Part shown: piece by piece, positions 1,749 to 26,155 of the stretch
Numbering within the stretch: the stretch's first letter is position 1
Layout: every line of letters begins with the position of its first letter
NCBI GenBank assembly: GCA_001508005.1
Contig: LGEZ01000018.1
Coordinates: 1 to 45,443 of the forward strand
Source of the DNA: Clostridia bacterium 41_269
Lineage (GTDB): Bacteria; Bacillota; DTU086
Direction of reading: 5' to 3'
Length of the DNA stretch: 45,443 bases
Translations under genes and position numbers: made by a program
Notes under the pieces: generated by a model
What the model was told of the DNA's origin: nothing
What the model saw: the letters and a program-made list of their open reading frames with translations, nothing else
The model's database searches: none

Positions 1749-1766
1749 AGCAGGTTGTATACATGC
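1749..1766 (+). repeat. Left copy of duplicated palindrome flanking element copy 2
   Basis: The 18-bp sequence beginning AGCAGGTTG matches the 18-bp sequence at 2033-2050 at 16 of 18 positions. The right copy is a clean terminator stem; this left copy is a decayed stem without a T-tract. It is read as a target-site duplication. Confidence 0.65.
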
Positions 1767-2032
1767 TCAGCTTGTTGATAGAGGGTCTCTGCTGCAGTTT
1801 TCTTATTCCTGAACTCGCACTGGACATCTCTAAGCAAAGCTTAAAGATAAAACCGGACCGTCCCAAATTCGACATCCTATGAAAGTATAGGGCTGGCGCT
1901 CACATCCTATTCGCGCCTCCCGGTTTTGCCTTGCGCTTTGCTAAGAGCTGTTAGCCAGCTCTCGTTAAGTCGTTTTGCAAACTGCAGCAGAGAACCATTA
2001 AAATTTAATAAGAAGGTTTGTCGATAGTTTGG
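1767..2032 (+). mobile_element. Interspersed hairpin element, copy 2 (MITE-like)
   Basis: This non-coding element of 266 bp fills most of the 387-bp gap between spoIIR and ylmC. It starts TCAGCTTG. The inner inverted repeat is GTCTCTGCTGCAGTTT (1785-1800) against AAACTGCAGCAGAGA (1979-1993). Further in, GCAAAGC...AAAACCGG pairs with CCGGTTTTG...GCTTTGC, and GGCGC...GCGCC closes a conserved apical loop. The whole unit can fold into one imperfect hairpin as DNA or RNA. No transposase is visible. The outermost end is more decayed here than in copies 3 and 4. Confidence 0.75.
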
Positions 2033-2060
2033 AGCAGGTTTTATACCTGCTTTTTTATTG
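2033..2060 (+). terminator. Rho-independent terminator (right copy of duplicated palindrome)
   Basis: AGCAGGT/ACCTGCT stem with a TTTA-type loop, followed by TTTTTTATT. It abuts the right end of element copy 2 and is the intact partner of the decayed stem at 1749-1766. It probably serves sigG-spoIIR. Confidence 0.85.
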
Positions 2061-2124
2061 TTAAAAATGCGTCACAAGATCTTAAGAATTATCATAGAAT
2101 TATTTAAAGGGAAATCCGGGGGAG

Positions 2125-2409
2125 GTGCCGGCCATAATACGGATTTCAGAACTGAAAACCAGAGATGTGATCAACATTGATGACGGACGAAGGCTGGGCT
2201 TGATCAGGGATATTGACTTGGATGTAGTTGAAGGCAGAGTTAAAGCAATTATTCTTCCCGGAACACCCAGATTTTTGGGTTTTTTCGGAAGAAGGGATGA
2301 TTTGATAATCCCCTGGGAAAAAATCAAAAAAATCGGGGTTGATGTTATATTGGTAGATTTAGAAGGAGCTGTGGACTTAAAAGGAGTGAAAATAATTAAA
2401 AACTATTAA
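2125..2409 (+). CDS. ylmC: YlmC/YmxH family sporulation protein (PRC-barrel)
   Basis: The 94-residue product is a single PRC-barrel-like domain, with RISELKTRDVINIDDGRRLG near the start and IPWEKIKKIGVDVILV in the second half. This is the small YlmC/YmxH family found near sigG and the ylm cluster in spore-formers. Its biochemical role is not established. The start is awkward: GTG 2125 overlaps the Shine-Dalgarno GGGGGAGG (2118-2125). An ATA codon at 2134 would have ideal spacing and give the usual short N-terminus MIRISEL. A terminator follows at 2420, so it is probably monocistronic. Confidence 0.85.
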   Translation: MPAIIRISELKTRDVINIDDGRRLGLIRDIDLDVVEGRVKAIILPGTPRFLGFFGRRDDLIIPWEKIKKIGVDVILVDLEGAVDLKGVKIIKNY

Positions 2410-2419
2410 AAAGTTATGG

Positions 2420-2452
2420 AAGTTTCGGTTTAATGCCGAAACTTTTTCGTTT
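2420..2452 (+). terminator. Rho-independent terminator after ylmC
   Basis: AAGTTTCGG pairs with CCGAAACTT around a 7-nt loop and is followed by TTTTCGTTTT. It separates ylmC from the nrd operon. Confidence 0.85.
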
Positions 2453-2469
2453 TAAGGGCAGACTGTTCT

Positions 2470-2498
2470 TTGACACACTAAATGTTGTGTAGTAGTAT
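2470..2498 (+). promoter_or_regulatory. Promoter of the nrdR-nrdD-nrdG operon
   Basis: TTGACA at 2470-2475 is a perfect -35 element. A 17-bp spacer leads to TAGTAT at 2493-2498 (4 of 6 matches to TATAAT). NrdR box 1 lies exactly between the two elements and box 2 lies at the expected transcription start. Confidence 0.7.
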
Positions 2499-2521
2499 AT
2501 GGAGGACACTAAATATAGATT
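2475..2521. promoter_or_regulatory. Tandem NrdR boxes
   Basis: Box 1 (2475-2490, ACACTAAATGTTGTGT) matches the published NrdR consensus acaCwAtATaTwgtgt at 14 of 16 positions. Box 2 (2506-2521, ACACTAAATATAGATT) matches at 13 of 16. The 15-bp gap puts the centres 31 bp apart, about three helical turns, the spacing known for NrdR. They imply repression by the first gene product of the operon. Confidence 0.8.
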
Positions 2522-2556
2522 TGGTTTGTGCCATACCAATTAAAAGGGTGATGCCA

Positions 2557-3012
2557 TTGCGGTGTCCTTACTGCGGAAACACCAGCTCTAAAGTTCTTGA
2601 ATCGAGACAGACTGAAGAGGGGAGATGTATTCGCAGAAGAAGGGAATGCATCTCCTGCAGTGAAAGGTTTACAACTTATGAAAGAATCGAAAAGATTCCC
2701 ATCTATGTTATTAAAAAAGATGGACGCAGGGAGCCCTTTGATCCTGAAAAGATACTGAAAGGACTTTTAAAAGCCTGCGAAAAGAGGCCCATTTCTGTGG
2801 AAAAGCTTAGGGAAATTGTGGATGAAATAGAGGCTGAGATTGTTAATAGAATGGAGACAGAGGTGCCCACTACAGTAATTGGCGAGATGGTTATGGACAA
2901 GCTCAAAAAGGTTGATGATGTGGCCTATGTCCGCTTTGCTTCTGTTTACAGAGAATTTAAAGATTTAAAAATGTTTCTAGAGGAGCTGGAAAATCTTTTA
3001 ACCTCAAAGTAA
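2557..3012 (+). CDS. nrdR: Transcriptional repressor NrdR
   Basis: NrdR senses ATP/dATP and represses ribonucleotide reductase genes. The product has an N-terminal zinc ribbon (CPYC and CISC, with [18 protein letters not shown] between and after them) followed by an ATP-cone (about residues 48-138, starting [15 protein letters not shown]). Length is normal at about 151 residues. TTG 2557 is chosen because it gives the standard MRCPYCG start and is preceded by AAGGGTGAT. ATG 2551 is possible but too close to its ribosome site. Any start further upstream would lie in the operator. nrdD follows after 30 bp. Confidence 0.92.
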
Positions 3013-3042
3013 TAAAAGCAAACTTTAGGGGGGAGGCTTAAA

Positions 3043-5055
3043 ATGTTCACCCAGATCAAGAAACGAGATGGAAGAGTGGTTGACTTTGATGCAACAAAGA
3101 TTACTGACGCAATTTTTGCTGCTGCAAGAGCTGTAGGGGGAGAAGATAGGGAAACTGCCAAAAGGCTTACCTACAAGGTTCTTGATTATCTGCATGAGAA
3201 GTTTGGTGATTCCCTTTTTACTGTGGAAGATGTTCAGGATGCTGTTGAAAAAATATTGATAGAAAACGGACATGCAAGGACTGCTAAGGCATATATTCTC
3301 TACCGTGATTGGAGGACAAGAATCCGCGAGGCTAAATCTGATCTGATGGATGCTGTTGAAGAAGTATTAAAGGAAACAAACCGAGAAAATGCTAATGTAA
3401 GCAATTCTCCATCTGCCAAAATGCTGCAGATAGCCAGCGCTGCAAGCAAACAGTACTATTTGAGCCGCTTAATTCCCGAGGAGTTTTCCTATGCCCACAG
3501 GAACGGCATTATTCACATACATGATCTTGATTTTTACGGCAAAACCCTTAACTGCCTGCAGATTCCTTTGGGAGAGCTGTTGAGAAATGGATTTAACAAC
3601 GGTCATGGATACATAAGACCTCCTAAAAGGCCTTCTTCGGCAACTGCTCTGGCGGCCATTATACTTCAGAGCTGTCAAAACGATATGCACGGAGGACAGT
3701 CCTTTGCTTTCTTTGATCGGGATATAGCACCTTATGTGGAAAATGCCAGTGAGGACGAAGCCTTTCAGGCAATGGAAGCCCTGGTTTACAACTTAAACAG
3801 CATGCACAGCAGGGCAGGAAGTCAGGTGCCTTTCAGTACCATCAACCTGGGTACCGATACATCTGAAGCAGGGCGCAGGGTTACCAGAAATCTCCTGTTG
3901 GCTTATGAAAGGGGTTTGGGCAGGGGTGAAAACCCCATTTTTCCGAATATTGTTTTTAGAATTAAAGAAGGCATTAACTGGGAGCCTGGAGATCCCAATT
4001 ATGATCTTCTTCTGCTCGCCATGAGAGTAGCAGCAAAGCGCATGAACCCCACATTCAGCTTCATGGATTCCTCTTTTAATAAGCGCTATGGCTGTGAAGT
4101 AAGTTATATGGGATGCAGGACCAGGGTCATAGCCAATGTTCGGGGTCCTGAAGTGTCTGAAAAAAGGGGAAATCTTTCCTTTACCAGCATTAATCTTCCC
4201 AGAATTGCATTAAAGAATAAAGGGAATGTGGATGCCTTCTTTAATGAGCTGGACAAGGTTATGGATCTGGCTATCAGGCAGCTTTATCACAGATTCCAGG
4301 TTCAAAGTAAGCTGAGGGTTAAGGATATGCCCTTCCTCATGGGGCAGCACCTGTACCTTGATTCCGACAATTTAGAAGAAGACGACATTATTGAACCTGC
4401 CATTGTTCACGGTACTCTGTCGGTGGGCTTTATAGGACTGGCGGAAACCCTTAAAGTGCTTACAGGAAAGCACCATGGGGAATCCGAAGAAGCCCAGAAG
4501 CTGGGCCTTGAAATAGTAAAGCACATGAGGGAACTGGTGGATAAAGCAGTGGCTGATTACAACTTAAACTATACTTTTTTAGCTACCCCAGCTGAGGGAT
4601 TATCTGGACGTTTTATTTCCATTGATAGGGAGGAATTTGGCGTTATTCGTGGAATTACGGATAAAGAATATTATACCAATTCTTTTCATGTTCCCGTTTC
4701 ATATCCCATAAGCTGTTATGAAAAAATTGAAATCGAGGGGCCATACCACAAATGTACCAATGCCGGCCACATCAGCTATGTGGAGTTTGCGTCTCCTCCT
4801 CAGAACAATGTGGCAGCGGTATATGATATCCTGAAGCATATGAAGAAACATGACATGGGTTATGTGGGTATTAATTTCCCCATTGATTTCTGCAATTCAT
4901 GCGCTTATTTAGGAGTTATATCAGAAGACAGCTGCCCTCGCTGCGGAAGCATTAACATCAGCAGAGTGCGCAGGATAACGGGGTATTTGAGTACGGTAGA
5001 CAGGTTTAATGATGCTAAGGTTGCAGAATTGAATGACCGAGTGGCGCATTTTTAA
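3043..5055 (+). CDS. nrdD: Anaerobic (class III) ribonucleoside-triphosphate reductase
   Basis: This oxygen-sensitive glycyl-radical enzyme makes dNTPs from NTPs under anaerobiosis. Residues 1-95 form an ATP-cone (IKKRDGRVVDFDATKI). The barrel follows, and the C-terminal part carries a zinc site (CNSC and CPRC) before the radical loop RITGYLS. The radical glycine is residue 647 of 670 (codon at 4981). The usual FNxGK after the loop reads FNDAK here. ATG 3043 follows GGGGGGAGG. It sits between nrdR and its activase nrdG, and the NrdR boxes upstream should control all three. Confidence 0.97.
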   Translation: MFTQIKKRDGRVVDFDATKITDAIFAAARAVGGEDRETAKRLTYKVLDYLHEKFGDSLFTVEDVQDAVEKILIENGHARTAKAYILYRDWRTRIREAKSDLMDAVEEVLKETNRENANVSNSPSAKMLQIASAASKQYYLSRLIPEEFSYAHRNGIIHIHDLDFYGKTLNCLQIPLGELLRNGFNNGHGYIRPPKRPSSATALAAIILQSCQNDMHGGQSFAFFDRDIAPYVENASEDEAFQAMEALVYNLNSMHSRAGSQVPFSTINLGTDTSEAGRRVTRNLLLAYERGLGRGENPIFPNIVFRIKEGINWEPGDPNYDLLLLAMRVAAKRMNPTFSFMDSSFNKRYGCEVSYMGCRTRVIANVRGPEVSEKRGNLSFTSINLPRIALKNKGNVDAFFNELDKVMDLAIRQLYHRFQVQSKLRVKDMPFLMGQHLYLDSDNLEEDDIIEPAIVHGTLSVGFIGLAETLKVLTGKHHGESEEAQKLGLEIVKHMRELVDKAVADYNLNYTFLATPAEGLSGRFISIDREEFGVIRGITDKEYYTNSFHVPVSYPISCYEKIEIEGPYHKCTNAGHISYVEFASPPQNNVAAVYDILKHMKKHDMGYVGINFPIDFCNSCAYLGVISEDSCPRCGSINISRVRRITGYLSTVDRFNDAKVAELNDRVAHF

Positions 5056-5071
5056 ATTTTAAGGAGGAGAA

Positions 5072-5596
5072 ATGATGAAAATTAGGCTTGCCGGCATTGA
5101 ACGGGAAAGTGTGGTTGATGGGCCCGGTATACGCTTTGTAATTTTCGGCCAGGGGTGCCCTCACAGGTGCCCCGGCTGTCATAATAAACATACGTGGGAT
5201 CCAAAAGGCGGATATTTAATGGACGCCGATGAAATAATAAAAGAGGTTCTCCAGTCACGGATCGTCAGGGGTGTTACCTTTTCTGGAGGAGAGCCTTTTT
5301 ATCAGGCTTCTGCTTTTTCCTATATAGGCAGAGAGGTTAAAAAACATGGTTTTGATGTTGTTACTTATTCTGGATACGTTTTTGAAGATCTTTTAGAATT
5401 GGCTGAAAGCAGGGAGGGTTTTTGGGAACTTCTTTACTGTACTGACTATCTCATTGATGGCCCCTTTATCTTGGCCCAAAAGGATCTGTCCCTTCCTTTC
5501 AGGGGATCTCGAAATCAGAGAATCATTGATGTAAAGAAATCTCTTGAAAAGGGCAGAGCTGTTCTGATGAGTGATTGGGACATCCTTGTGGTATAA
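5072..5596 (+). CDS. nrdG: Anaerobic ribonucleotide reductase activating protein (radical SAM)
   Basis: NrdG uses a [4Fe-4S] cluster and S-adenosylmethionine to generate the glycyl radical on NrdD. The cluster motif CPHRCPGC places cysteines at residues 29, 33 and 36, and TFSGGEP is the SAM-binding GGE motif. The product has 174 residues, normal for the family. The gene starts 17 bp after nrdD with AAGGAGG and tandem ATG codons at 5072 and 5075; either could be used. Confidence 0.95.
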   Translation: MMKIRLAGIERESVVDGPGIRFVIFGQGCPHRCPGCHNKHTWDPKGGYLMDADEIIKEVLQSRIVRGVTFSGGEPFYQASAFSYIGREVKKHGFDVVTYSGYVFEDLLELAESREGFWELLYCTDYLIDGPFILAQKDLSLPFRGSRNQRIIDVKKSLEKGRAVLMSDWDILVV

Positions 5597-5631
5597 AAGT
5601 GGTATAAAATGAGAATTGAGAAGGTTGGTTT

Positions 5632-6453
5632 ATGGACAGTGTATTTTGCCTTAAACACAGGGGAAGCCTGGAGTATTTTGAAATTGAATTTCCCTGCCCA
5701 GGTATAGCTCGAGGAATATTTACTACAAGAAAGGGCGGAGTAAGCTTACCTCCTTTCAACAGTTTAAATATGGCCTTCCATGTGGGAGATGAAAAAGAGA
5801 AAGTCCTTTTAAATAGAAAAATTGCAGCAGATGCTCTGGGCATTCCTTTAGAAGAATTTACTTCCGGAGAACAGGTTCACGGCGATAAAGTGGTGTTAGT
5901 TGAAGAGGAGCAGCGGGGGCGGGGTGCTTTTGATCTAAAAGATGTTATCCCTGGAGCCGATGCATTAATTACAGGAAAAAAAAATGTGGCACTAACGGCT
6001 TTTTTTGCCGACTGCGTGCCCATATATATTCTCTGTCCCCATGATAGAAAAATCGGCATTGCTCATGCGGGATGGAAGGGAACGGCTTTAGGGATTGCTG
6101 GAAAAACAGTGAAAGCCATGAAGGCCGCTTTTGGAGTAAAAGAAAGAGACTGTATGGCATTTATTGGTCCTTCCATTGGACCATGCTGCTATACTGTTGG
6201 TGAAAATGTATATATGCAGTTTTCTGACCATTTTGAAAATAAAAGGGATGACTTTTTTAAGAAACTGTCCCATGAAAAATGGAGTTTGGATCTGTGGACT
6301 GCAAATAAATATGATTTAATTTTTTCAGGAATTGAACCAAAAAATATTTTTGTCAGCGGACTCTGTACCTGCTGCAATGAAAATCTCTTTTTTTCATATA
6401 GAAGGGAAAATGGTAAGACAGGAAGAATGGCAGCTGTTTTTAAGCTTATATAA
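5632..6453 (+). CDS. pgeF: PgeF/YlmD family purine nucleoside phosphorylase (laccase domain)
   Basis: Members of this family (YfiH/YlmD, formerly called polyphenol oxidase) act on purine nucleosides and have been linked to peptidoglycan editing. The 273-residue protein has the family zinc-site motifs: EQVHGD, FFADCVPIYI and HAGWKGTALG, then GPSIGPCCYTVGE and CTCCNENLFFSYRR near the end. ATG 5632 follows GAGAAGG. It opens the ylm cluster (ylmD-ylmE-ylmF), 35 bp after nrdG with no visible terminator, so it may receive nrd read-through. Confidence 0.92.
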   Translation: MDSVFCLKHRGSLEYFEIEFPCPGIARGIFTTRKGGVSLPPFNSLNMAFHVGDEKEKVLLNRKIAADALGIPLEEFTSGEQVHGDKVVLVEEEQRGRGAFDLKDVIPGADALITGKKNVALTAFFADCVPIYILCPHDRKIGIAHAGWKGTALGIAGKTVKAMKAAFGVKERDCMAFIGPSIGPCCYTVGENVYMQFSDHFENKRDDFFKKLSHEKWSLDLWTANKYDLIFSGIEPKNIFVSGLCTCCNENLFFSYRRENGKTGRMAAVFKLI

Positions 6454-6535
6454 AAGTAAAAGTAAGATCAGGAACCAGCTGCGAGGGTACCGCTGCTGTA
6501 AAATTCAGATGAATCATTAGAGGGGGGACGGCACA

Positions 6536-7228
6536 GTGAACACCATAGCACAAAACCTGGAACGAACTTTGGAGCGCATTAAGAATGCTGCCCTTAAAGC
6601 AGGAAGGGACCCCAGCGGGATAAAGCTGGTGGCGGTATCCAAAGGGATTGATGTGGATAGGATAAAAATGGCTTTGGAAGCAGGAGTTAAATGTCTGGGC
6701 GAAAACAGGGTACAGGAATTTATTGATAAGTATGAGGTTATTGGTGAAGATGTGGAGTGGCATTTTATAGGGCACCTGCAGAGAAATAAAGTTAAATACA
6801 TTATAGGAAAGATGGCTTTAATACATTCCCTAGACCGACTGAGCCTTGCAGAGGAGTTGAATAAAAGGGCAGGAAGGAAATCTATAAAGGTTGATGTTTT
6901 GGTTCAGGTTAATGTTTCTGGAGAAGAGACAAAACATGGAGTAAGTTTGGAAAAAGCTATTCCTTTTGTTACAACAGTTGCAGAAAAGTATCCCAATATA
7001 AACATTAAAGGCTTGATGACCATAGCTCCCATAGCTGATGATCCGGAAAAAGTAAGGCCCTATTTTAGAAAGCTCAGGCTGCTTTCCCAATCCATTGAGG
7101 AAAGGAAAATACCTGGAGTAAAAATGGAATGGCTGTCCATGGGCATGACTGATGATTTTGAAGTGGCTGTAGAAGAAGGGGCGAATATGGTTAGGATAGG
7201 ACGGGCAATTTTTGGGCCAAGAGGTTAA
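6536..7228 (+). CDS. yggS: YggS/YlmE family pyridoxal phosphate homeostasis protein
   Basis: This is a small PLP-binding protein with an alanine-racemase-like barrel, involved in vitamin B6 and amino-acid homeostasis. The PLP lysine lies in LVAVSKG; CLGENRVQEF, WHFIGHLQRNK, GLMTIAP and MGMTDDFEVAVEEGANMVRIGRAIFG in parts are further family motifs. The length of 230 residues is normal. GTG 6536 follows GAGGGGGG. sepF starts about 17 bp downstream, as in other ylm clusters. Confidence 0.93.
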   Translation: MNTIAQNLERTLERIKNAALKAGRDPSGIKLVAVSKGIDVDRIKMALEAGVKCLGENRVQEFIDKYEVIGEDVEWHFIGHLQRNKVKYIIGKMALIHSLDRLSLAEELNKRAGRKSIKVDVLVQVNVSGEETKHGVSLEKAIPFVTTVAEKYPNINIKGLMTIAPIADDPEKVRPYFRKLRLLSQSIEERKIPGVKMEWLSMGMTDDFEVAVEEGANMVRIGRAIFGPRG

Positions 7229-7244
7229 AAGGGGGTGCTTTTTG

Positions 7245-7675
7245 GTGAGCAAAAAGCTAAGTGATAAGATTTTAAGTTTTTTTGGGCTGGAAATTGATGA
7301 AGACGATGAAATAATGCAGGATGGAGAGCAGAAATGGGACAGGCAGGTAATTCCTGGAATTCAAAAAAAAAAGGTAGCAATGTTATCAGCCTTCATGCTG
7401 TTAAAAATATGAAGATAATTGTCATGCGGCCCACAAGTTTTGAGAAGGTTATGAACTATGCTGCGGACTTAAAAAACCGCCACCCTGTGGTTTTAAATTT
7501 TGAAGGAACCGACGGGGAAACTGCAAGACGCATAATTGATTTTATGAGCGGAGTTACCTATGCTTTAGGGGGAACTGTGGAAAAAATAAGTTCTTCCATA
7601 TTTGCTTTTCTGCCCAACAATGTGGAAATTATAGGAGATATTGAGGATTATATACATATCAAAAATAAAGTCTGA
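7245..7675 (+). CDS. sepF: Cell division protein SepF (frameshifted in this sequence)
   Basis: SepF binds membrane and FtsZ and aligns the division ring. The N-terminal part (from GTG 7245, VSKKLSDKILSFFGLE, an amphipathic membrane-targeting helix) is in one frame. The conserved SepF domain (VISLHAVKNMKIIVMRPTSF onward, ending EIIGDIEDY) is in the -1 frame. The switch falls at a run of ten A at 7363-7372. Adding one A gives 144 codons, the normal family length. Either the sequence lacks one A, or polymerase or ribosome slippage on A10 makes the full protein. It lies in the usual place after yggS. Confidence 0.88.
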
Positions 7676-7690
7676 AGGGAATGGTAATGT

Positions 7691-9529: not shown

Positions 9530-9788
9530 CAAAAAAATAAAGACAAAGGCATTGACGGGGAGGAGTAAGCTGTTTTTTCTGGAAACAGCGAGACCGGGAA
9601 GGTGGAAGCCGGTCCCAGATGGCAGCCGAAGATCGCCCCTGAGCAGCGCTCTGAAATTCGTAAAGAAAAGTAGGAGCTGCCGTGAGCTACGCGTTATGTG
9701 CTTTGAGTGAACCGCTTAATCCAGCGGTTTACTAAGGTGGTACCGCGGGTAGAAGCCTCTCGTCCTTAGGGATGGAGGCTTTTTTAAT
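9530..9788 (+). promoter_or_regulatory. T-box riboswitch (isoleucine) upstream of ileS
   Basis: This leader senses uncharged tRNA-Ile and switches between termination and read-through. Stem I begins around GGGGAGGAGTAAG, and the distal part has GGTGGAAGCC. The probable specifier is ATC at 9632-9634 in GAAGATCGCCCCTGAGC. The antiterminator signature AAGGTGGTACCGCGG is at 9734-9748. The competing terminator (9754-9785, AGCCTC/GAGGCT arms plus T-tract) follows. The Ile codon agrees with the downstream gene. Confidence 0.93.
9754..9785 (+). terminator. T-box regulatory terminator
   Basis: AGCCTCTCGTCC pairs with GGATGGAGGCT around TTAG and is followed by a T-tract. It is the conditional terminator of the ileS T-box. 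Confidence 0.85.
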
Positions 9789-9842
9789 GATGGTCGATAA
9801 TTGATAATGGCTAAAACATCATGGAAGTATGAGGTGAGAGCA

Positions 9843-12629
9843 GTGAGCTACAATGATACCCTTAATCTGCCCAAAACGGATTTTCCCATGAGGGCCAATC
9901 TTCCTAAAAGAGAACCGGAAATTCTTAAGTTTTGGGAAGAAATCGATATCTACAGGAAAGTGCAGGAAAAAAACAAAGGCAGAAAAAAGTTTATTCTTCA
10001 TGATGGTCCCCCCTATGCCAATGGGAACATCCATTTAGGAACAACCCTTAATAAAATTCTTAAGGACATCGTTGTCAAATACCATTCTATGGTGGGTTAT
10101 GATGCTCCCTTTGTTCCGGGCTGGGATACCCATGGGCTTCCCATTGAAACCCAAGCCATAAAGAATCTGGGAATAAACCGCGGTGAAATAAGCGTTCATG
10201 AATTCAGACAGAAGTGCAAAGAGTATGCTTTGAATTACGTTAATATTCAAAGGGAGCAGTTTAAACGCCTTGGGGTAAGGGGAGATTGGGATAATCCCTA
10301 TTTAACCCTTCATCCAGAGTTTGAAGCGGCTCAAATAGGCGTTTTTGGCGAGATGGCAAGAAAAGGATATATCTACAAAGGACTTAAGCCTGTTTATTGG
10401 TGTGCTGACTGCCAGACTGCTTTGGCAGAAGCCGAGGTGGAATATCATGATGCCAGGTCTCCTTCTATTTATGTAAAGTTTCCTGTGGTAGATGGTAAAG
10501 GAAAGCTTCCAGAAGAAAACTGCTATGTGGTAATTTGGACAACCACTCCATGGACCTTACCGGCAAACGTTGCCATTACCCTGCATCCAAGATATGTATA
10601 TGTTTTATTGGAGAAGGACGGAGAATATTTTGTAATGGCTAAAGAACTGTACAAAAAGGCTCTTGAAGATATGGACATCACAGAAGAATTTAAAGTTGTT
10701 AAAGAATTTCAGGGTAAGGAACTGGAAGGTGTAGTCTGCAGGAACCCCCTAGTGGATAGGGATTCTCTCGTTATCCTTGGGGAGCACGTTACTCTGGAAC
10801 AGGGTACAGGATGTGTTCATACTGCACCGGGCCACGGTATTGAAGACTATGAGGTGGGACAGCGGTATGGTCTTCCCATCATTTCTCCTTTGGATTCTGA
10901 GGGTAAGTTTACCAGTGAAATAAAAGATCTTGAAGGACTTCCCTATTTCGAAGCCAACAAAGTCATTACCGGCAGATTAGAAGAAAACGGCAGCCTTATG
11001 CATCTCAGCTTTATCAATCACCAGTATCCCCACTGCTGGCGCTGCAAGCATCCTGTTATTTTTAGAGCAACGGAGCAGTGGTTTGCTTCCATAGGAAATT
11101 TCCGCAAGGAGCTCCTTGAGGAAATAGATAGGGTTAAATGGATTCCTTCTTGGGGTAGGGAAAGAATGCATAATATGATAGCAGAAAGGGGAGACTGGTG
11201 CATTTCCAGGCAGAGGACTTGGGGTGTACCCATTCCTGCTTTTTACTGCAGGTCCTGTGGAGAAATTATAATAACGGAAGAAACCATTTCCCATATACAG
11301 AAACTTTTTAAAGAACATGGTTCAGACATATGGTTTATTAAAGAAGCCCATGAATTGATTCCCGAAGGCCTGAAATGCCATGCCTGCGGCGGCGGGGAAT
11401 TTGAAAAAGAAACTGACATTATGGATGTTTGGTTTGATTCCGGTTCTAGCCACATTGGAGTCCTTTTGGAAAGGGAAGAGCTGGAGTGGCCTGCTGATCT
11501 CTATCTAGAGGGAAGCGACCAGTACCGCGGCTGGTTTAATTCTTCACTGTCAACAGGTGTTGCTGTTAAAGGAAAGGCACCATATAAGGCTGTTCTGACT
11601 CACGGCTTTTTGGTGGACGAGCAGGGCAGAAAGATGTCCAAGTCTTTAGGAAATGTTATTGATCCCATGGATGTAATAAAATCCTTAGGGGCAGATATTT
11701 TAAGGCTGTGGGTTTCTTCAGCAGATTATCATAAGGACATTGCTGTTTCCGACAATATTATGAAGCAGATAGCAGAAGCTTACCGCAAAATTAGAAATAC
11801 CTGCCGCTTTCTTATAGGAAATCTATACGATTTTACCCCAGGAAGAGATGAGGTAGCATATGACGATCTCTTAGAGCTGGATAAATGGGCACTCCTTAAG
11901 CTCCACAAACTTATCAAACAGGTTACAGAAGCATATTCTAAGTACGATTTCCACCGGGTATATTATGATATCCATAATTTCTGCGTTACTGATATGAGCG
12001 CTTTTTATCTTAATATCTTAAAGGACAGGCTGTATACTTTTAAAGCAGACAGTGTTGAAAGGCGTGCTGCCCAGACGGTTATGTATCAGATATTAGAGGT
12101 GCTGGTGGTGCTTCTGGCTCCCATTTTGGCTTTCACTACGGAAGAAATATGGAGATATATGCCGAAGAAAGAAGGTGCTCCCGAAAGCGTTCAGCTTGCC
12201 GATTGGCCTAAAGTAAATGAGAAATATCTTGATGCCGATCTTGAGAAAAGATGGGACATGTTAATTGAAGTTAGAGAACAAGTAGTTGATGCCCTGGAAA
12301 TTGCAAGAAATGATGGTCTTATAAGAGATTCATTAGAGGCAAAGGTGGAGCTTTATCCCAGCAGAGAATTATACGATTTTCTTAAAGAATATGAAAAAGA
12401 TCTTGCTACTCTGTTTATTGTTTCCCAGGTGAAACTGAATGACCCAGAAAAGGAACTTCCCCATGAAGTGACGAGGTACTGGGAAGAACAGAAGCTGGGA
12501 ATAAAAATAGATAGGGCAAAAGGGGAAAAATGCGAACGGTGCTGGATTTACAGCGAGACTGTTGGGCAGGCTGAAAAGCATCCCACCATCTGCAGCAGAT
12601 GCGTTGAGGTGGTGGAAAGCTTGAAATAA
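9843..12629 (+). CDS. ileS: Isoleucine-tRNA ligase
   Basis: IleRS charges tRNA-Ile and edits valine. The class I catalytic motifs are GNIHLG (HIGH) in PPYANGNIHLG and KMSKS in GRKMSKSLGN. The connective editing domain (WTTTPWTLPANVA region) lies between them, and a C-terminal zinc finger (CERC...CSRC) is the bacterial type. GTG 9843 is preferred: it follows GAGGTGAG (9831-9838) and gives VSYNDTLNLPKTDFPMRA, the normal start. An ATG-type start at 9801 would lie too close to the T-box terminator. At 928 residues the length is normal. Confidence 0.96.
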   Translation: MSYNDTLNLPKTDFPMRANLPKREPEILKFWEEIDIYRKVQEKNKGRKKFILHDGPPYANGNIHLGTTLNKILKDIVVKYHSMVGYDAPFVPGWDTHGLPIETQAIKNLGINRGEISVHEFRQKCKEYALNYVNIQREQFKRLGVRGDWDNPYLTLHPEFEAAQIGVFGEMARKGYIYKGLKPVYWCADCQTALAEAEVEYHDARSPSIYVKFPVVDGKGKLPEENCYVVIWTTTPWTLPANVAITLHPRYVYVLLEKDGEYFVMAKELYKKALEDMDITEEFKVVKEFQGKELEGVVCRNPLVDRDSLVILGEHVTLEQGTGCVHTAPGHGIEDYEVGQRYGLPIISPLDSEGKFTSEIKDLEGLPYFEANKVITGRLEENGSLMHLSFINHQYPHCWRCKHPVIFRATEQWFASIGNFRKELLEEIDRVKWIPSWGRERMHNMIAERGDWCISRQRTWGVPIPAFYCRSCGEIIITEETISHIQKLFKEHGSDIWFIKEAHELIPEGLKCHACGGGEFEKETDIMDVWFDSGSSHIGVLLEREELEWPADLYLEGSDQYRGWFNSSLSTGVAVKGKAPYKAVLTHGFLVDEQGRKMSKSLGNVIDPMDVIKSLGADILRLWVSSADYHKDIAVSDNIMKQIAEAYRKIRNTCRFLIGNLYDFTPGRDEVAYDDLLELDKWALLKLHKLIKQVTEAYSKYDFHRVYYDIHNFCVTDMSAFYLNILKDRLYTFKADSVERRAAQTVMYQILEVLVVLLAPILAFTTEEIWRYMPKKEGAPESVQLADWPKVNEKYLDADLEKRWDMLIEVREQVVDALEIARNDGLIRDSLEAKVELYPSRELYDFLKEYEKDLATLFIVSQVKLNDPEKELPHEVTRYWEEQKLGIKIDRAKGEKCERCWIYSETVGQAEKHPTICSRCVEVVESLK

Positions 12630-12636: not shown

Positions 12637-12661
12637 AAAGTTCCCCAAAGGGGGAACCTCT
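12637..12661 (+). repeat. Left copy of duplicated terminator stem flanking element copy 3
   Basis: AAAGTTCCCC and GGGGAACCTCT enclose AAAG. The sequence matches the right-hand copy at 12927-12950 except for one loop base and one extra C. It still forms a strong 7-bp stem but has no T-tract, because the element follows at once. Confidence 0.75.
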
Positions 12662-12926
12662 TCAGCTTGTTGACAAAAAGTCTCTGCTGCAGTTTTCTTA
12701 CTCCTGAACTCGCACAGGGCATCTCTACGCAAAGCTTAAAGACAAAACCGGACCGCCCCAAATTCGACGTCCTGTCTCAGGTTGAGGCTGGCGCTCACAT
12801 CCTATTCGCGCCTCCCGGTTTTGCCTTACGCTTTGCCAAGAGCTGTCAGCCAGTGCTCGTTAAGTCGTTTCGCAAACCGCAGCGGAGACCTACTGAGATT
12901 TAATATGAGGGCTTGTCTGCAATCTG
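12662..12926 (+). mobile_element. Interspersed hairpin element, copy 3 (best preserved)
   Basis: This 265-bp non-coding element fills most of the 400-bp gap between ileS and the ACT gene. Its left end TCAGCTTGTTGACAA is inverted at the right end (reverse complement TCAGATTGCAGACAA). The inner inverted repeat is GTCTCTGCTGCAGTTT (12680-12695) against AAACCGCAGCGGAGAC (12874-12889). Then GCAAAGC...AAAACCGG pairs with CCGGTTTTG...GCTTTGC, and GGCGC/GCGCC closes the apical loop. Reading frames cross it but are not shared with the other copies. Confidence 0.78.
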
Positions 12927-12955
12927 AAAGTTCCCCAAAAGGGGAACTCTATTTT
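12927..12955 (+). terminator. Rho-independent terminator of ileS (right copy of duplicated stem)
   Basis: GTTCCCC/GGGGAAC around AAAA (12930-12947), followed by TCTATTTTT. It is the near-identical partner of the stem at 12640-12657 on the other side of the element. Confidence 0.85.
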
Positions 12956-19961: not shown

Positions 19962-21003
19962 GAGAGGCCTTTTCCCACTGCAGCAGCCGTTTTAAATTTC
20001 TGGCAATATTTTCGTAGCACTGGGAAGCTGGACTGTGGGGATATTTCAGCACACAGGGGCACAGCCTTTTTACCGATTTAAAAACATTGGGGTCTTCCAT
20101 CACAAAACCCAGTTCTATTATATCCAGTGAAAGAAACCTCTGGGCTGCTTTTACTATACGGTGGGAAACATCATAAGCTTCGTAGCGGCTGAAAACCCTG
20201 TTTACTATGAGCCCTATCTTGGAATGGATTTTTTTGTCTTTGAGAACTTTTAAAGCGGCATAAGCATCTGTGACTGCATGGGGCTCAGGTGTGGTGAGGA
20301 TAATTACTGAATCAGCGAATTTGTTGAAGAGCATTGTATTGCTCAGCACCCCAGGGGATGTGTCCACCAGAATTACATCCACATACCTTTCCAGCAGCCC
20401 TAAATTATTTATTATCTTTTGAACCTCAGCTTCTGTTATGAAATCTGGATTCTGAAAACCAGAGGTTCCAGGAACTATTATGATTCCGCAGGGACCTTCC
20501 ATAATTATCTGAAAAATATTTTTATTTCCCCTTATCAGATCCTGGAGGGAAGCCTTAGCATTAAGATTCAGCAGAACATCTATATTTGCCGTTCCCAAAT
20601 CTGCATCAACGATGCATACCCTCATTCCCTGCTGGCTTAAGGCCACAGCAGTATTTATAAGCAGGGTGCTTTTCCCAACCCCTCCCTTACCGCTGGTTAC
20701 AGTAATTATTTGGGGGGCATGTTTTTTTCCTGCCTTTGTAATCTGATAGGGAATTGTTAATTCGAAGCATGATTCGCCCTTAAGGAATGTTTTATTTACA
20801 ATTTCCGAAAGAAAAGACCTGCCTTCAGGTATTTCCACCTTGACCATAGTTCCTGAAGGAAGAAGTACGATTTTACCCCTATGGTGGGGTATTTTTATTT
20901 TAAAGGTATTTAAAGATTTATTGATTACTTCGCATTTAAATGCCTTTCCTTTATAAATACCTGTTAAAGGCTCCACATAAATTACCATCCCAGGCGAAAT
21001 CAA
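19948..21003 (-). CDS. FlhG/MinD-like ATPase with N-terminal YcgR-type domain
   Basis: The 351-residue protein has two parts. Residues 1-88 resemble the N-terminal domain of the flagellar brake YcgR: PGMVIYVE start, IKIPHHRGKIVLLPSGTMVKV, then FELTIP. The second part is a deviant-Walker P-loop ATPase, SGKGGVGKST at 104-113 and VDADLGTANIDVLL from 132, the latter typical of FlhG (MinD2), which regulates flagellar number and placement. The C-terminal PilZ domain that binds c-di-GMP in YcgR is not seen. No flagellar genes are nearby. The role is inferred only. Confidence 0.75.
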   Translation of the reverse strand: MISPGMVIYVEPLTGIYKGKAFKCEVINKSLNTFKIKIPHHRGKIVLLPSGTMVKVEIPEGRSFLSEIVNKTFLKGESCFELTIPYQITKAGKKHAPQIITVTSGKGGVGKSTLLINTAVALSQQGMRVCIVDADLGTANIDVLLNLNAKASLQDLIRGNKNIFQIIMEGPCGIIIVPGTSGFQNPDFITEAEVQKIINNLGLLERYVDVILVDTSPGVLSNTMLFNKFADSVIILTTPEPHAVTDAYAALKVLKDKKIHSKIGLIVNRVFSRYEAYDVSHRIVKAAQRFLSLDIIELGFVMEDPNVFKSVKRLCPCVLKYPHSPASQCYENIARNLKRLLQWEKASLIVK

Positions 21004-21213
21004 GGTTCTCCTGCTCCTTTGCTCCCACAGTGTTTAAGCCAAAATTTCTCCTTTTTAAATTTTTTATCCTTCGGGAATTACATCTACTTTTGTCGTTTTT
21101 TGAGATAATTGTAAAAAATTTTGTTAGTTAGAGATGACACAATCATATACTCCAAAGTCTAAGGAGCAGCCTTCCAATAGAATTGAAACAAGCACTAAAA
21201 AATTTCTAAAACC

Positions 21214-21253
21214 TTAAGATTAATATGATTATGCGTATAATTATATGTATAAT
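21214..21253 (+). promoter_or_regulatory. Probable promoter/operator of the toxin-antitoxin pair
   Basis: TTAAGA (21214) and TATAAT (21236-21241) have a 16-bp spacer, and a second TATAAT lies at 21248-21253. The two halves repeat an ATG(CG)TATAAT unit, which could be a tandem operator for the antitoxin. Confidence 0.45.
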
Positions 21254-21302
21254 ATATTTGCAAAGAGAGCATATTATTATCAGTAGAAAGGAGTGTAAAA
21301 AG

Positions 21303-21677
21303 GTGAGTAAAATAATGAGCAATGATTTTGACATTTCTGATGACCCGGTGTTATTAACACCCAGTCAGTTGGTTTCTTCTTCTAAATTGGTCAGAAGCTT
21401 CAGCTCCTATTTAAATAAGGCTAAAAAAAGACCTCTTTTTATAACGAGGGAACAAGAGATAGAAGCTGTTTTAATTAGTATAGATGAGTACAGAAGATTG
21501 TTGGAAGAAAAACTCAGAATCGAAGAACTTTACGACGCAGCTGCTGCTCTTAGGCGTTTGGTCGAAGCCGCAGAAAAAGAGCAGGAATTGTTGAGCCTTG
21601 ATGATGTTCTGAAGGAACTTGATTTGACCAGAGAGGAACTGGTGGCCCAAAGTGAAGGCGGAGGAATGGACGGTTAA
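21303..21677 (+). CDS. Type II antitoxin, Phd/YefM-like
   Basis: The product of 124 residues neutralises the toxin encoded next to it and probably represses the pair. The core resembles Phd/YefM N-domains (SSSKLVRSFSSYLNKAKKRP followed by LFITREQEIEAVLISIDEYR). A helical, acidic C-terminus, rich in E and L, would wrap the toxin. GTG 21303 with AAAGGAG eight bases before is preferred over the longer upstream reading. It overlaps the toxin gene by 26 bp, the usual arrangement. Confidence 0.8.
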   Translation: MSKIMSNDFDISDDPVLLTPSQLVSSSKLVRSFSSYLNKAKKRPLFITREQEIEAVLISIDEYRRLLEEKLRIEELYDAAAALRRLVEAAEKEQELLSLDDVLKELDLTREELVAQSEGGGMDG

Positions 21678-21993
21678 ATTTCTTCCAGAAGCTTTGAATG
21701 ACCTTCTAAAATTGGATCGAAGCGCACAGAAACGCATATTAGCAGCGGTACTGAAACTGAAAAAGGACCCCATTGGTTATGGCAAAAATTTGGGAAATAA
21801 ATTGGGTTTAAACCTTTCTAAATTATATAAAATTACACTCCTTTCTGGTTATCGCATTGTTTATTCAGTTGAAGAAACAGAAGTACTTGTCTGCATCATT
21901 GCTGTTGGAAAAAGGGAAAAAGAAAGGGTTTATAAGAATGCTGCTAAAAGAATTGAAGAATTTCGAAAAAAAAACCATTGCAGAACTAAATAA
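21652..21993 (+). CDS. Type II toxin, RelE/ParE family
   Basis: This is a basic protein of 113 residues with the RelE/ParE pattern: FLPEALNDLLKLDRSAQKRI at the start, a central KLYKITLLSGYRIVYSVEE and the C-terminal IAVGKREKERVYKNA. RelE-type members cut mRNA on the ribosome and ParE-type members poison gyrase; the sequence alone leaves this open, though the YRIVY...VGKRE pattern leans to RelE. GTG 21652 lies in the end of the antitoxin gene. Confidence 0.83.
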   Translation: MKAEEWTVKFLPEALNDLLKLDRSAQKRILAAVLKLKKDPIGYGKNLGNKLGLNLSKLYKITLLSGYRIVYSVEETEVLVCIIAVGKREKERVYKNAAKRIEEFRKKNHCRTK

Positions 21994-22016
21994 GATTGAA
22001 TCGTTGTTGGGCAGAA

Positions 22017-22050
22017 AATAAAAGCAGCCTCTCCAGAAAAGGAAAGGCTG
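22017..22050 (-). terminator. Terminator of the GH13 gene (minus strand)
   Basis: Read on the minus strand, CAGCCTTTCC pairs with GGAGAGGCTG around six bases and is followed by CTTTTATTTT. It lies 33 bp beyond the GH13 stop codon. Confidence 0.75.
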
Positions 22051-22082
22051 AAAACTTCACATCCTGGGGTTTTTGGTTTTTT

Positions 22083-23882
22083 TTACAGATTTCCTGTCAA
22101 AAGTATCAGTCCGCTGTGTTCTTCAAGGGAGGGGATATGGATTTTCCCCTTTTTTAAACGGTAGGTTTTTTGGGTTAGGGCTTCGTAAAATTCTGTTCCT
22201 TCTTTTAGGGGAAGTTCATCCGTTGGGATGAAAAGTTCCCTTTCCTTTGAGCCGGCGTTTATGGCTGTTACGGCAGTAGTATTTTCCAGTTTTCTGGCAA
22301 AGCAGTATATCCTGCCCTCATCCTCGGCTAAAAGGGGTATAAAGCTGCCTGAGGTGAGGACGGGATTTTTTTTTCTCATTTTGATCAGCTTTTTATAGAA
22401 TTCCTTAAGTTCCAGGTCCTGTTCCTTTTCATCCCAGATCATTGTTCTGCGGCAGCCGGGGTCCGGTCCCCCCAGCATACCTATTTCATCGCCGTAGTAT
22501 ATCATCGGAGCCCCTGGATAGGTCATTTGGAATATTACCGCCGGGCGCATTCTTTTCTTCACCTCATTGATGTTTAAAGGGGCTGATAGAGCCGGCATTT
22601 CTTCTTTAAATACTGTAAGCACCCTGGGAGTATCATGGCTGCCCAAAAGGTTCAGCAGGGAGAGGTTGACCTGCTGATGGTACATGAGCCGCAGGATGCC
22701 CATTTTGCTGTCAAAATCAGAGGCTCCCATTTTTCTTCGGGCAAAGAAGTCCAGCACGTTGTCCCTGAAGAGATAATTCATCACCGCATCAAATTCGTCC
22801 CCCTGAAGCCAAGGTCTGCCGTCGTCCCAAATTTCCCCAACGATATAGCAGTCAGGGTTTATGCTTTTTACAACTTTTCTAAATTCCTTCCAAAAGTCAT
22901 GATCAATTTCATTGGGAACATCCAGACGCCAGCCGTCGATGTTGAATTCCTGCGTCCAATAGGCAGCGGTATCCAGAAGATATTTTTTAACTTCAGGATT
23001 TTTTACGTTCAGCTTTGGAAGTTCCGGTACGTCCCACCAGCATTCATAGGTGGGGCGGGGATGTATCCTTACTGGAAACTCGTAAATGTAGTGCCAGTCC
23101 TTATATCGGGAGGAGGAGCCCTTTTCAAGTATATCCTGAAAAGCCCAGAATTTTGTGCCCGTATGATTGAACACACCATCAAGTATAATTTTGATGCCAT
23201 TTTGATGCAGTTTATCCACAAGGCTTTTTAGGGTTTCTTTGTCCCCGAAATGGGGGTCGATTGCGCGATAGTCGTAAGTATTGTATTTATGGTTGGATTC
23301 TGCGGCAAAAATGGGATTGAGCCAAATTGCATTTATTCCTAGATTAACAAGATATGGAATTTTCTTCTCTATTCCTTCCAGATCGCCGCCGAAAAAGTTT
23401 TCCCTGGTAGGTTCGCCGCCCCATTCTTCGGTATGAGGCGGGTCGTTATGGGGGTTCCCGTTGTAGAAGCGCTCCGGAAAAATTTGATAGAAAATTGAAT
23501 TCTTAACCCAAGAAGGAGTTTCAAAAATTTCCTCAGGGAACAATTCATATTTAAAGTAGTGCACGCTGTCTTTGTTTTCTGTGCCCAGATTGCTGATATT
23601 TTCTCCCAAAAAAATATTTTTGCCCTGATAATTTACTTCAAAATAGTATTCTATGGTTTTATTTTCCCGGACTTTGACTTCTGCTTCATAATATTTTGAG
23701 TTTCGGGTGCGCACCGAAGGGAGCATAGAAATGCTGTCCCATGAATCTTTATTCTTGTAGTGAAGGGTGCATCTCACCGGTCTTTCTTTTTCTGCCAAAT
23801 ATATTCTCAGCCTGATGATCAATGTCTCCGCATCCGCAGGATGTATATATCTTACCGACTGCCTGTGGTTAATTCTTATCAA
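22083..23882 (-). CDS. GH13 alpha-glycosidase (neopullulanase/cyclomaltodextrinase type)
   Basis: This enzyme should hydrolyse alpha-1,4 (and possibly alpha-1,6) links in maltodextrins. The 599-residue protein has an N-terminal CBM34-like beta domain (1-115). The TIM barrel starts at WVKNSIFYQIFPERF. Conserved regions are DGVFNH (235-240), DGWRLDVPNE with nucleophile Asp321, GEIWD with acid Glu350 and LLGSHDTPR with Asp417. A C-terminal beta domain ends it. There is no signal peptide, so it is probably cytoplasmic. Its start overlaps the GH15 gene end by 14 bp, so the two are translationally coupled. Confidence 0.93.
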   Translation of the reverse strand: MIRINHRQSVRYIHPADAETLIIRLRIYLAEKERPVRCTLHYKNKDSWDSISMLPSVRTRNSKYYEAEVKVRENKTIEYYFEVNYQGKNIFLGENISNLGTENKDSVHYFKYELFPEEIFETPSWVKNSIFYQIFPERFYNGNPHNDPPHTEEWGGEPTRENFFGGDLEGIEKKIPYLVNLGINAIWLNPIFAAESNHKYNTYDYRAIDPHFGDKETLKSLVDKLHQNGIKIILDGVFNHTGTKFWAFQDILEKGSSSRYKDWHYIYEFPVRIHPRPTYECWWDVPELPKLNVKNPEVKKYLLDTAAYWTQEFNIDGWRLDVPNEIDHDFWKEFRKVVKSINPDCYIVGEIWDDGRPWLQGDEFDAVMNYLFRDNVLDFFARRKMGASDFDSKMGILRLMYHQQVNLSLLNLLGSHDTPRVLTVFKEEMPALSAPLNINEVKKRMRPAVIFQMTYPGAPMIYYGDEIGMLGGPDPGCRRTMIWDEKEQDLELKEFYKKLIKMRKKNPVLTSGSFIPLLAEDEGRIYCFARKLENTTAVTAINAGSKERELFIPTDELPLKEGTEFYEALTQKTYRLKKGKIHIPSLEEHSGLILLTGNL

Positions 23883-25770
23883 TTAAATTCTCTCCTTCCA
23901 TAAGAAGTACTGCAAGAATAAACATTACATGGGACCAGGCCAGGGGCAGAGCCCAGGCGGGCCGCCCTGAAAGCTTATCTATCTGCTCCGCAAAAAGATC
24001 AAGGTGATTTCTGTGCTTTACCGACCACATGAAATATTTTTTAGCTTTGTTTCTGCTGCCAGTAAGAAAATAGCAGATGGAAAGCCAGAGAGTAATAAGG
24101 ATCCACGGATTGCCCTTTATGTATTCATCTCCTTGGTATCTTTTAATTCCTCCGGTAATTTCACATGTAAGATGTTTTTCCACTGCATGGATAATCTTTT
24201 GAGCCTTTTCGTCTTCATAATCAATGATTTTAAAGGGAAAGATCAATCCTAAAGTTGAAGAATCAACCGTTTTATCCGGTAAGCCGTTGATAAGTCCCCT
24301 TATATAATATTCTTCTGTTTTGTTCCACATAAAATTATCTAAAGCCATCCTTATGCTGCGGCAAAGTTTCTCCAGATCTTCTGCCCTGGTAGTAATCAGC
24401 TTTTCTTCCTTTAATTCCACTGCGGTATTTAGGGCGGCTTTTAATCCTGCAATCACAGCTGCCGTGGTATAGGTGCTTATGCCATAGAAATCTTCCCAAA
24501 TATCAAAGCTGGGCTGGGGAAGAAATGTCCTGCTGTCAATTTTTCCTTTGAGGGCTTCAGCGGCTTTTTTCACAGTATCCCACATTTTTAAAAGAAAATT
24601 GTAATTTCCGGTAGTAAGGTAGTGCTGCCTTATGCCCCAAAGCATAATTCCTGTTTCATCAAGCTGGTCGCCCCAGCAGGGAGCTGTGGTGCCGGCGGCA
24701 TAGTACCGCTGGCTCCATAATCCGTCTTTTCTTTGAACCTGTGCTCCAAAATAATAAAAATTTTCCGCTGTGCTTTCGTGGCCTGCTAAAGATAAAGCCC
24801 AGGCTGTGAAAACGGAATCTCTGGGCCAGCAATACCCATATCCGCCGGACTGCTCGTAGTAAGGGTCAAACTCCGGTGAAGCGATAAAGGCTCCGCTGTC
24901 TTTATCATTGAGAAGTCTAAGCATAAGAAGGGATCGTTTGAACAGCTTATTTATGAGACCATCCTGTAAGTATAAGCTTCTGCCCGCTTTGAGGTAGTTT
25001 TCCCAGTGCTGTAAAGCTTCACTGCGGAGCTCCTTTATATCTCTGCTTTTTATTTTTTCAAAGATTTCTTCTGCTTTTTCTTGGGTTTCCCCTGCGGCTA
25101 AAAATAGGGTAATATTTTCTGTCCAGTTTTCAGAAATATAACCCAGATCCCAAAGGGCAGCGGATGCGGAAATTCCGTTGGAGTATTTCCTGCCCGCAGG
25201 AAGGCCTTTTTTTAGAAAAATTAGGGGGCTGTCCTTGCCTTTGGGGCTGCCGCACTGAAAGCCCATGGGGTTTCTGCTGCTGCCGAGCATGAAATAAATG
25301 TTGTTGAAATAATGGAGAAAGGAATCCGTTTCTTTTAGGTATAAAACGGTATTGTAGCGTTCCATATCATTTACCTTCATGTGGTTGTAGCAGGCAAAGG
25401 AACCGAAGAATTTTTTACAGTTTAAATTCTCTATATTAAAGTTTCTTATGAGCACATCATATTGGGGATGAACAAAATCTTCCTGGGTTACTTTAAGACC
25501 CAGCTCAGGGCTGTAGTGGGTAGTGACCAGTATGTTTGAATTTTCTAGATATGTTTGGGAGTGCTGCCATATATCTTCATGAAACCATAAAAGTTCAGGA
25601 TCGGCGCAGGGATGCTGAATTAATATACCCGCATGGATTTGAGCAGCATTTTGGGGGAAATCAATATGGGGCCAAAAGAGTCTTATGAGCTCCCCCTGGG
25701 GAGAAACCGCTGCCAGCATTCTGGAATTTCCAATTACTCCACCTGGAAGCTTGGTTTTATTCTTATCCAT
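23869..25770 (-). CDS. GH15-family glycoside hydrolase (glucoamylase-like)
   Basis: GH15 enzymes release glucose from alpha-glucans or hydrolyse related disaccharides with inversion. The protein (633 residues) has an N-terminal beta-sandwich and a C-terminal (alpha/alpha)6 barrel. The barrel motifs are GGYGYCWPRDSVFTAWALSL, the probable acid in DIWEDFYG and the probable base in LDLFAEQID. No signal peptide is seen, so it acts inside the cell. ATG 25770 follows GGGAGG on the minus strand; the in-frame TTG 25782 lies before this site. With the GH13 gene it forms a two-gene maltodextrin operon. Confidence 0.88.
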   Translation of the reverse strand: MDKNKTKLPGGVIGNSRMLAAVSPQGELIRLFWPHIDFPQNAAQIHAGILIQHPCADPELLWFHEDIWQHSQTYLENSNILVTTHYSPELGLKVTQEDFVHPQYDVLIRNFNIENLNCKKFFGSFACYNHMKVNDMERYNTVLYLKETDSFLHYFNNIYFMLGSSRNPMGFQCGSPKGKDSPLIFLKKGLPAGRKYSNGISASAALWDLGYISENWTENITLFLAAGETQEKAEEIFEKIKSRDIKELRSEALQHWENYLKAGRSLYLQDGLINKLFKRSLLMLRLLNDKDSGAFIASPEFDPYYEQSGGYGYCWPRDSVFTAWALSLAGHESTAENFYYFGAQVQRKDGLWSQRYYAAGTTAPCWGDQLDETGIMLWGIRQHYLTTGNYNFLLKMWDTVKKAAEALKGKIDSRTFLPQPSFDIWEDFYGISTYTTAAVIAGLKAALNTAVELKEEKLITTRAEDLEKLCRSIRMALDNFMWNKTEEYYIRGLINGLPDKTVDSSTLGLIFPFKIIDYEDEKAQKIIHAVEKHLTCEITGGIKRYQGDEYIKGNPWILITLWLSICYFLTGSRNKAKKYFMWSVKHRNHLDLFAEQIDKLSGRPAWALPLAWSHVMFILAVLLMEGENLIDKN

Positions 25771-25799
25771 TTTTCCTCCCAATTAAAAACGTATATGTA

Positions 25800-25828
25800 G
25801 GTATATTTGTATTATGCGAACTCTTCAA
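25800..25828 (-). promoter_or_regulatory. Possible promoter of the GH15-GH13 operon
   Basis: On the minus strand TTGAAG (25823-25828) and TATACC (25800-25805) are 17 bp apart and lie about 30 bp before the GH15 start. Both hexamers are imperfect, so this is tentative. Confidence 0.35.
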
Positions 25829-25840
25829 TTTAAATATGTT

Positions 25841-25868
25841 AAAAATAAAAAATCCGGCTTAAAGCCGG
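25841..25868 (-). terminator. Terminator (minus strand), distal copy of palindrome duplicated around element copy 4
   Basis: The perfect palindrome CCGGCTT-A-AAGCCGG is followed on the minus strand by ATTTTTTATTTTT. It terminates transcription coming from the HD-domain gene through the element. A decayed partner lies at 26140-26155. Confidence 0.88.
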
Positions 25869-25870
25869 TA

Positions 25871-26138
25871 CAAGACTGTATACAAAGGATCTCTGCTGCA
25901 GTTTTCTTACTCGTGAACTCATGCTGAACATCTCTAAGCAAAGCTTAAGGGCAAAACCGGACCGCCCCAAATTTGACGTCCTGTCTCAGTTGGGGGCTGG
26001 CGCTCACCTCCTATTCGCGCGCTTTAAGGTTTTTCCCTACGCTTTGCCAAGAGCTGTTAGCCAGCGTTCATTAAGTTGTTTCGCAAACTGCAGCAGAGAC
26101 CTACTAAGATTAACTCAGAGGGTTTTTCTACAGTCTGA
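25871..26138 (+). mobile_element. Interspersed hairpin element, copy 4
   Basis: This 268-bp non-coding element fills the 373-bp gap between the HD gene and the GH15 gene. Its outer ends CAAGACTGTATACAAA and (inverted from the right) TCAGACTGTAGAAAAA form an imperfect terminal repeat. The inner inverted repeat is ATCTCTGCTGCAGTTT against AAACTGCAGCAGAGAC (26085-26100). The middle has diverged (CGCGCGCTTTAAGGTTTTTCCC in place of the CCGG arm). It is inserted in the opposite sense relative to the terminator compared with copies 2 and 3. Confidence 0.75.
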
Positions 26139-26139
26139 A

Positions 26140-26155
26140 AAGCTTAAAGCCAGTA
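26140..26155. repeat. Gene-proximal, decayed copy of duplicated palindrome at element copy 4
   Basis: AAGCTTAAAGCCAGTA shares GCTTAAAGCC and the following G-T-A with the intact palindrome region at 25854-25870. It contains the stop codon of the HD gene (26144-26146). Confidence 0.55.

Follow-up and report, generated by a model that had tools for sequence, protein, structure and literature searches.

The stretch of DNA considered here, 45,443 nucleotides of contig LGEZ01000018.1 from Clostridia bacterium 41_269 (assembly GCA_001508005.1; hereafter referred to as the window), carries several copies of a short mobile element, each full copy lying between two hairpins that match each other and differ from those at the other loci. 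The locus raises the question of how a repeated element comes to be framed, at every site, by a duplicated hairpin particular to that site. A preliminary description of the window had interpreted the hairpins as transcription terminators duplicated on insertion; the observation itself is confirmed and the interpretation is supported overall by the present analysis, each of the three checks suggested there having given the expected outcome. Judged by its sequence, the element is a miniature inverted-repeat transposable element (MITE) of an insertion sequence (IS) of the IS1182 family having the same 16-bp ends. With a probability of about 0.88, an IS1182-family DDE transposase acting in trans mobilises it and, joining it to the feet of the hairpin or cruciform, duplicates the entire hairpin.

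The element is 264-266 bp long in most copies and combines terminal inverted repeats (CAGCTTGTTGACAAA / CAGACTGTAGACAAA), the absence of a transposase gene, a target duplication and a high copy number, all of which characterise a MITE. Its ends are CAG...CTG; the preliminary description had extended them to 'TCAG...CTGA', but the outer T and A usually belong to the duplicated target, as the A-T pair that closes it. A BLAST search of the whole genome (1.67 Mb, 30 contigs) with the element gave 32 matches, corresponding to over 20 copies. For the 13 copies that could be read in place, the left flank was aligned to the right flank of its own locus and to those of the other loci, and the own flanks were the best-aligning pair in 13/13 cases (median score 19, as against a cross-locus median of 6 and maximum of 13, n=156). 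Matching within the locus is thus far beyond chance, and the locus-specific palindromes noted in the window are general in the genome. Several copies are cut by contig ends, and there the hairpin is the same on both ends, as with AATCGGCTTATTTAAGCCGATT on contigs C6 and C15. One copy (L013, contig C13:62272-62536) lies in a hairpin just 3' of the apparent end of a 5S ribosomal RNA gene. In several copies the hairpin farther from the T-tract has decayed; L014 and L018 are counter-examples, and no rule is claimed.

Empty sites settle the direction of events, as read from sequence comparison: one hairpin before insertion and two after it. In a genome of the same genus (G001), the locus corresponding to the window copy at 12663 has a single hairpin, GTCCCCCGAAAGGGGGAC, and retains the neighbouring genes, and the site of a second copy (L019) likewise has one hairpin and no element. 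The flanks of an IS on an Enterococcus faecium plasmid, joined with one hairpin, match other plasmids at 202/202 bases, and an empty site in E. faecalis aligns in one piece at 98.9-99.1% identity; an empty site for the IS on an E. casseliflavus plasmid was sought and not found. The spoIIR site of the same-genus genome carries a MITE (L087) in the opposite orientation to the window copy at 1768-2031, at the same terminator; the opposite orientations in the two species would be due to inversion or to independent insertion on two occasions.

The preliminary description envisaged full-length relatives that encode a transposase and share the ends of the element, and such relatives do exist. A genome search with the shared 15-bp end, CAGnnTGTnGACAAA, located a longer IS: further sites were found at contig ends, where repeats broke the assembly, and the inner sequence at such breaks corresponds to the two ends of a longer element (CAGACTGTCGACAAA) and not to the MITE. 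An exact palindromic duplication of 27 bp (AAAAGCCCGTCATTGAGACGGGCTTTT) spans one contig break and another of 26 bp (GCTTTTTTGAATAAATTCAAAAAAGT) a second, and both the ends and the type of target are therefore common to the MITE and the IS of this genome. The 26-bp duplication lies within an open reading frame (FFEFIQKS) that extends to either side of it, and has no T-tract, and the target is for this reason a palindrome or hairpin and not a terminator as such; of the terminator targeting originally proposed, it stands that hairpins are duplicated and that most of them are terminators. The same pattern of ends is present in other families of the phylum, including an IS in Thermoflavimicrobium (CAGCTTGTCGACAAAG / CAGACTGTAGAAAAAC).

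The closed Bacillota genome G039 contains about 34 copies of an IS of about 1595 bp (1592-1596 bp), the transposase of which belongs to IS1182 (model NF033551, 468.7 bits, cut-off 270), the ISNCY model NF033593 giving 80 bits with a cut-off of 325. Perfect direct repeats of 19-35 bp, every one of them a hairpin, were found in 28 of the 29 copies with both ends readable (AAGCGCAGGAGTAGTTTTTACTACTTCCTGCGCTT of 35 bp and AGGCTGCCGCAGGCAGCCT of 19 bp are two of these). When named genomes were scanned with an alignment of three transposase sequences, 80 relatives were identified, 58 of which had flanks on both sides; in 34 of these, perfect palindromic repeats of 19-42 bp adjoin the CAG (or CAA) ends. 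Their hosts include Bacillus, Sporosarcina, Cytobacillus, Exiguobacterium, Romboutsia, Butyrivibrio, Anaerostipes, Streptococcus ictaluri and others. The relatives outside G039 are mostly 1.5-1.85 kb long with CAGnnTGTnGACAAA ends, in agreement with the IS1182 pattern of an IS of about 1.3-2 kb with inverted terminal repeats. Palindromic repeats of 19-30 bp were also found at five of six further plasmid members of the family, and a palindromic repeat at a Rhizobium member. No bias in the orientation of the IS relative to the T-tract was seen, either in G039 (10 vs 10) or in the wider set (9 vs 13).

The shape of the duplications was examined in a set of 66 (28 from G039, 34 from the named genomes, three from G024 and one from G008), the 34 from named genomes having been chosen for a repeat of at least 17 bp and not for palindromy. 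They range from 17 to 42 bp, and 64 of the 66 have at least five Watson-Crick pairs in the six outermost positions, a property of 0.8% of shuffled sequences; the outermost pair is A-T in 55. The outer six positions contain on average 5.7 pairs in register and 1.9 after a shift of one base. As the pairing is lost on so small a shift, the cuts fall at the hairpin's feet, in long and short hairpins alike. The duplicated unit is hence the whole hairpin, flush with the element at both feet and adaptive in length. The preliminary description had placed the insertion point between the stem and its T-tract or within the stem; duplication of the stem holds, and the position is refined to the feet of the entire hairpin.

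A phylogenetic tree, sampled by similarity and rooted on distant members, groups the members that duplicate hairpins in one clade, with six more distant family members outside it; given this sampling and rooting, what the tree shows is that these members cohere, not that they had a single origin. On a Priestia megaterium plasmid, a more distant IS1182 element (L323; ends GAGACCTCCGAAAAAA) seems to have entered the loop of CCCCTTGAGGGG, duplicating 4-5 bp, as if the loop alone had been doubled.

DDE transposases normally make a short, fixed stagger. For the present clade, we consider it rather probable that there is no such fixed stagger and that the junction of an extruded cruciform sets a duplication of 17-42 bp, in any sequence. 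The most likely mechanism would be strand transfer at the two 5' feet of the cruciform, which meet at the four-way junction irrespective of the length of the arms; because they do so, one whole hairpin of any length could be duplicated. The 3' ends of the element would be joined at the feet, and gap filling or repair would then double the hairpin, leaving the element flush between two copies. Since most strong intergenic hairpins in these genomes are intrinsic terminators, insertions come to lie behind genes with the T-tract on one of the two hairpins. In this way, genes would be spared and the stop signal would probably survive, which may explain the spread of a mobile element at little cost to genes or termination.

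Several observations weigh against this reading. The gene for an IS1182 transposase is absent from the assembly of the genome itself, in which only the ends of the IS are seen at contig breaks, such as C21/C10 and C3/C26, and it is for this reason that we infer, and do not observe, the mobilisation of the MITE by such an IS. Extrusion and recognition of a cruciform as the target signal is likewise a step that we infer. One G039 copy carries a different hairpin on each side, as do eight of the 58 relatives; five more show a hairpin for which the script chose another register and are ambiguous, the ends were not placed by the script at 10 loci, and an IS of Butyrivibrio hungatei (L270), with perfect 16-bp ends, has a repeat of only 6 bp and no clear hairpin. 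At L250, L254, L256, L263, L273, L285 and other loci, the IS lies between two unrelated hairpins, each flush with it. Such mismatched pairs suggest frequent recombination between IS copies, which would explain them best.

Other explanations of the flanking hairpins must be weighed against these data. A palindrome at both ends of nearly every copy could also be expected of a composite repeat that carries terminator-like ends as part of itself, but the palindromes are locus-specific and match only within a locus, and sites without the element retain one of them; refuted by the empty sites, this explanation has practically no probability left. Replacement of a stem-loop as by IS1272, the flanking hairpins being of other origin, would suit the shared transposase family and the stem-loop targets, mainly terminators, of IS1272 and TnSha1 (PMC5678879, PMC4923244). 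However, empty sites have a single hairpin and filled sites a pair, without loss of any sequence, by which replacement is contradicted for this clade and highly improbable. An IS with an ordinary long stagger of fixed length, merely preferring terminator regions, would resemble the IS1202 long-duplication group, in which duplications of 16-28 bp occur with no known target (PMC10132070). The IS1202 family was in fact considered on account of the long duplications and dropped once the transposase proved to be IS1182, the ISNCY score being far below its cut-off; the spread of duplication lengths, with ends at both hairpin feet and pairing destroyed by a one-base shift, also speaks against a fixed stagger, which is very unlikely.

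It is, finally, unlikely that the element is a structured regulatory RNA spread as a 3' untranslated region element, with mobility a secondary matter. The candidate is the TwoAYGGAY RNA motif (RF01731; PMC2864571), against which the interior of the window copy at 12663 scores above the Rfam gathering threshold (12705-12863, minus strand; 48.8 bits, gathering 43). Nine places in the genome match the model, five of them above the cut-off, and the minus strand of the MITE folds with z = -7.0. The match is, however, antisense to the upstream gene ileS, and any MITE would be expected to form a long imperfect hairpin. Of 300 genomes of the phylum, 44 contain TwoAYGGAY, many of them more than once; among 29 loci in other genomes one (L190) clearly has a duplicated hairpin, most having none within 160 bp; motif and mobility are thus not generally linked, and TwoAYGGAY as a general MITE is unsupported. 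No recorded link of the motif to transposition was found in the literature. The connection between TwoAYGGAY and the MITE is a lead only.

The window contains three full copies and one partial copy of the element, as first described, all on the plus strand; the partial one is numbered copy 1 and the full ones copies 2, 3 and 4. Ungapped identity is 72-93% over 121 nt among all four and 86-87% over 144 nt among the full copies. Copy 1 (1-145; 94% identity over 146 nt to the copy at 12663) stands at the contig edge, with its left half beyond the edge and its right end truncated, and is followed by its right hairpin (146-166, GGAATGGTGTGAACCCATTCC) and then a T-tract. At the end of contig C27, CAG is preceded by a hairpin (...GGAATGGGGTAAACCCATTCCTT) that GGAATGGTGTGAACCCATTCC matches; from this match, the end of C27 is probably the missing left half. 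Copy 2 (1768-2031) lies between spoIIR (1075-1737) and ylmC/ymxH (2125-2409). Its left hairpin (1749-1767, AGCAGGTTGTATACATGCT), identified from sequence and locus comparison, is degenerate and without a T-tract, while the right one (2033-2051, AGCAGGTTTTATACCTGCT; AGCAGGTTTTATACCTGCTTTTTTATT) together with its T-tract is predicted to be a working terminator. Copy 3 (12663-12926), the interior of which gives the TwoAYGGAY match, follows ileS (9801-12629), in surroundings that include a T-box leader (9543-9770) and an ACT-domain gene. The left hairpin (12638-12660, with AAGTTCCCCAAAGGGGGAAC at 12638-12657) begins just after ileS and the right one (12927-12950, with AAAGTTCCCCAAAAGGGGAAC from 12927; AAAGTTCCCCAAAAGGGGAACTCTATTTTT) has the T-tract; a search for sigma-70 promoters near this copy found none. 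Copy 4 (25871-26137; 84% identity over 256 nt) is reversed relative to its gene (26144-26632, minus strand), so that the T-tract is at the left. The left hairpin (25851-25870, AAAAATCCGGCTTAAAGCCGGTA; TCCGGCTTAAAGCCGG at 25853-25868), with its T-tract on the minus strand, is by its sequence the terminator of that gene, and the right hairpin (26139-26153, AAAGCTTAAAGCCAG) is decayed.

Among known systems, IS1397 and ISPpu10 insert into the palindromic units of repetitive extragenic palindromic sequences and use one conserved, repeated palindrome, whereas the present elements use any hairpin sequence. The analogy with IS1397 drawn at the outset thus holds for the palindromic target and fails for kinship, the family being IS1182. 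A preference of IS1182 elements for terminators or stem-loops as targets is already known. ISCbo5 and ISBma2 of this family are described as inserted at the ends of genes, in inverted repeats that form hairpins (PMC3098183), and share with the present elements both the transposase family and this type of site; compared by description, the account there, as far as it was available, includes no whole-hairpin duplication that tracks hairpin length. That some IS1182 members target palindromes is attributed to a review by Siguier et al. in PMC5678879 and PMC4923244, and ISfinder lists duplications of 2-60 bp for the family, noted as an extreme case (PMC7335449). The IS1202 long-duplication group is similar in its long target duplications and in the size of its IS (1.3-1.7 kb), and differs in the family of its transposase and in that no palindromic target is reported (PMC10132070).

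The closest comparison is with IS1272 and TnSha1, IS1182-family elements that target stem-loops by structure, mostly terminators, without duplication (PMC5678879, PMC4923244). IS1272 removes the target stem-loop and the present elements keep and double it, no loss of the stem-loop being seen here; Wan et al., who report replacement by IS1272, drew a hairpin duplication as hypothetical pathway b (Fig. 13 of PMC5678879). No description of the whole-hairpin rule, or of the MITE that exploits it, was found in the literature searched, the scope of which did not extend to a 2006 paper on C. novyi and the Siguier reviews. What is added here is the length-adaptive duplication of whole hairpins, its consistency across a clade and a MITE that exploits it. 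The long duplications of IS1182 elements in this clade would thereby be explained, the duplication being the hairpin, and the data point to a DDE transposase whose stagger follows the structure of the DNA and not a fixed distance. If this is true, IS1182 transposases would differ in the foot that is attacked, the 5' feet leading to duplication as in the present elements and the 3' feet to replacement as in IS1272, with the loop perhaps as a further target.

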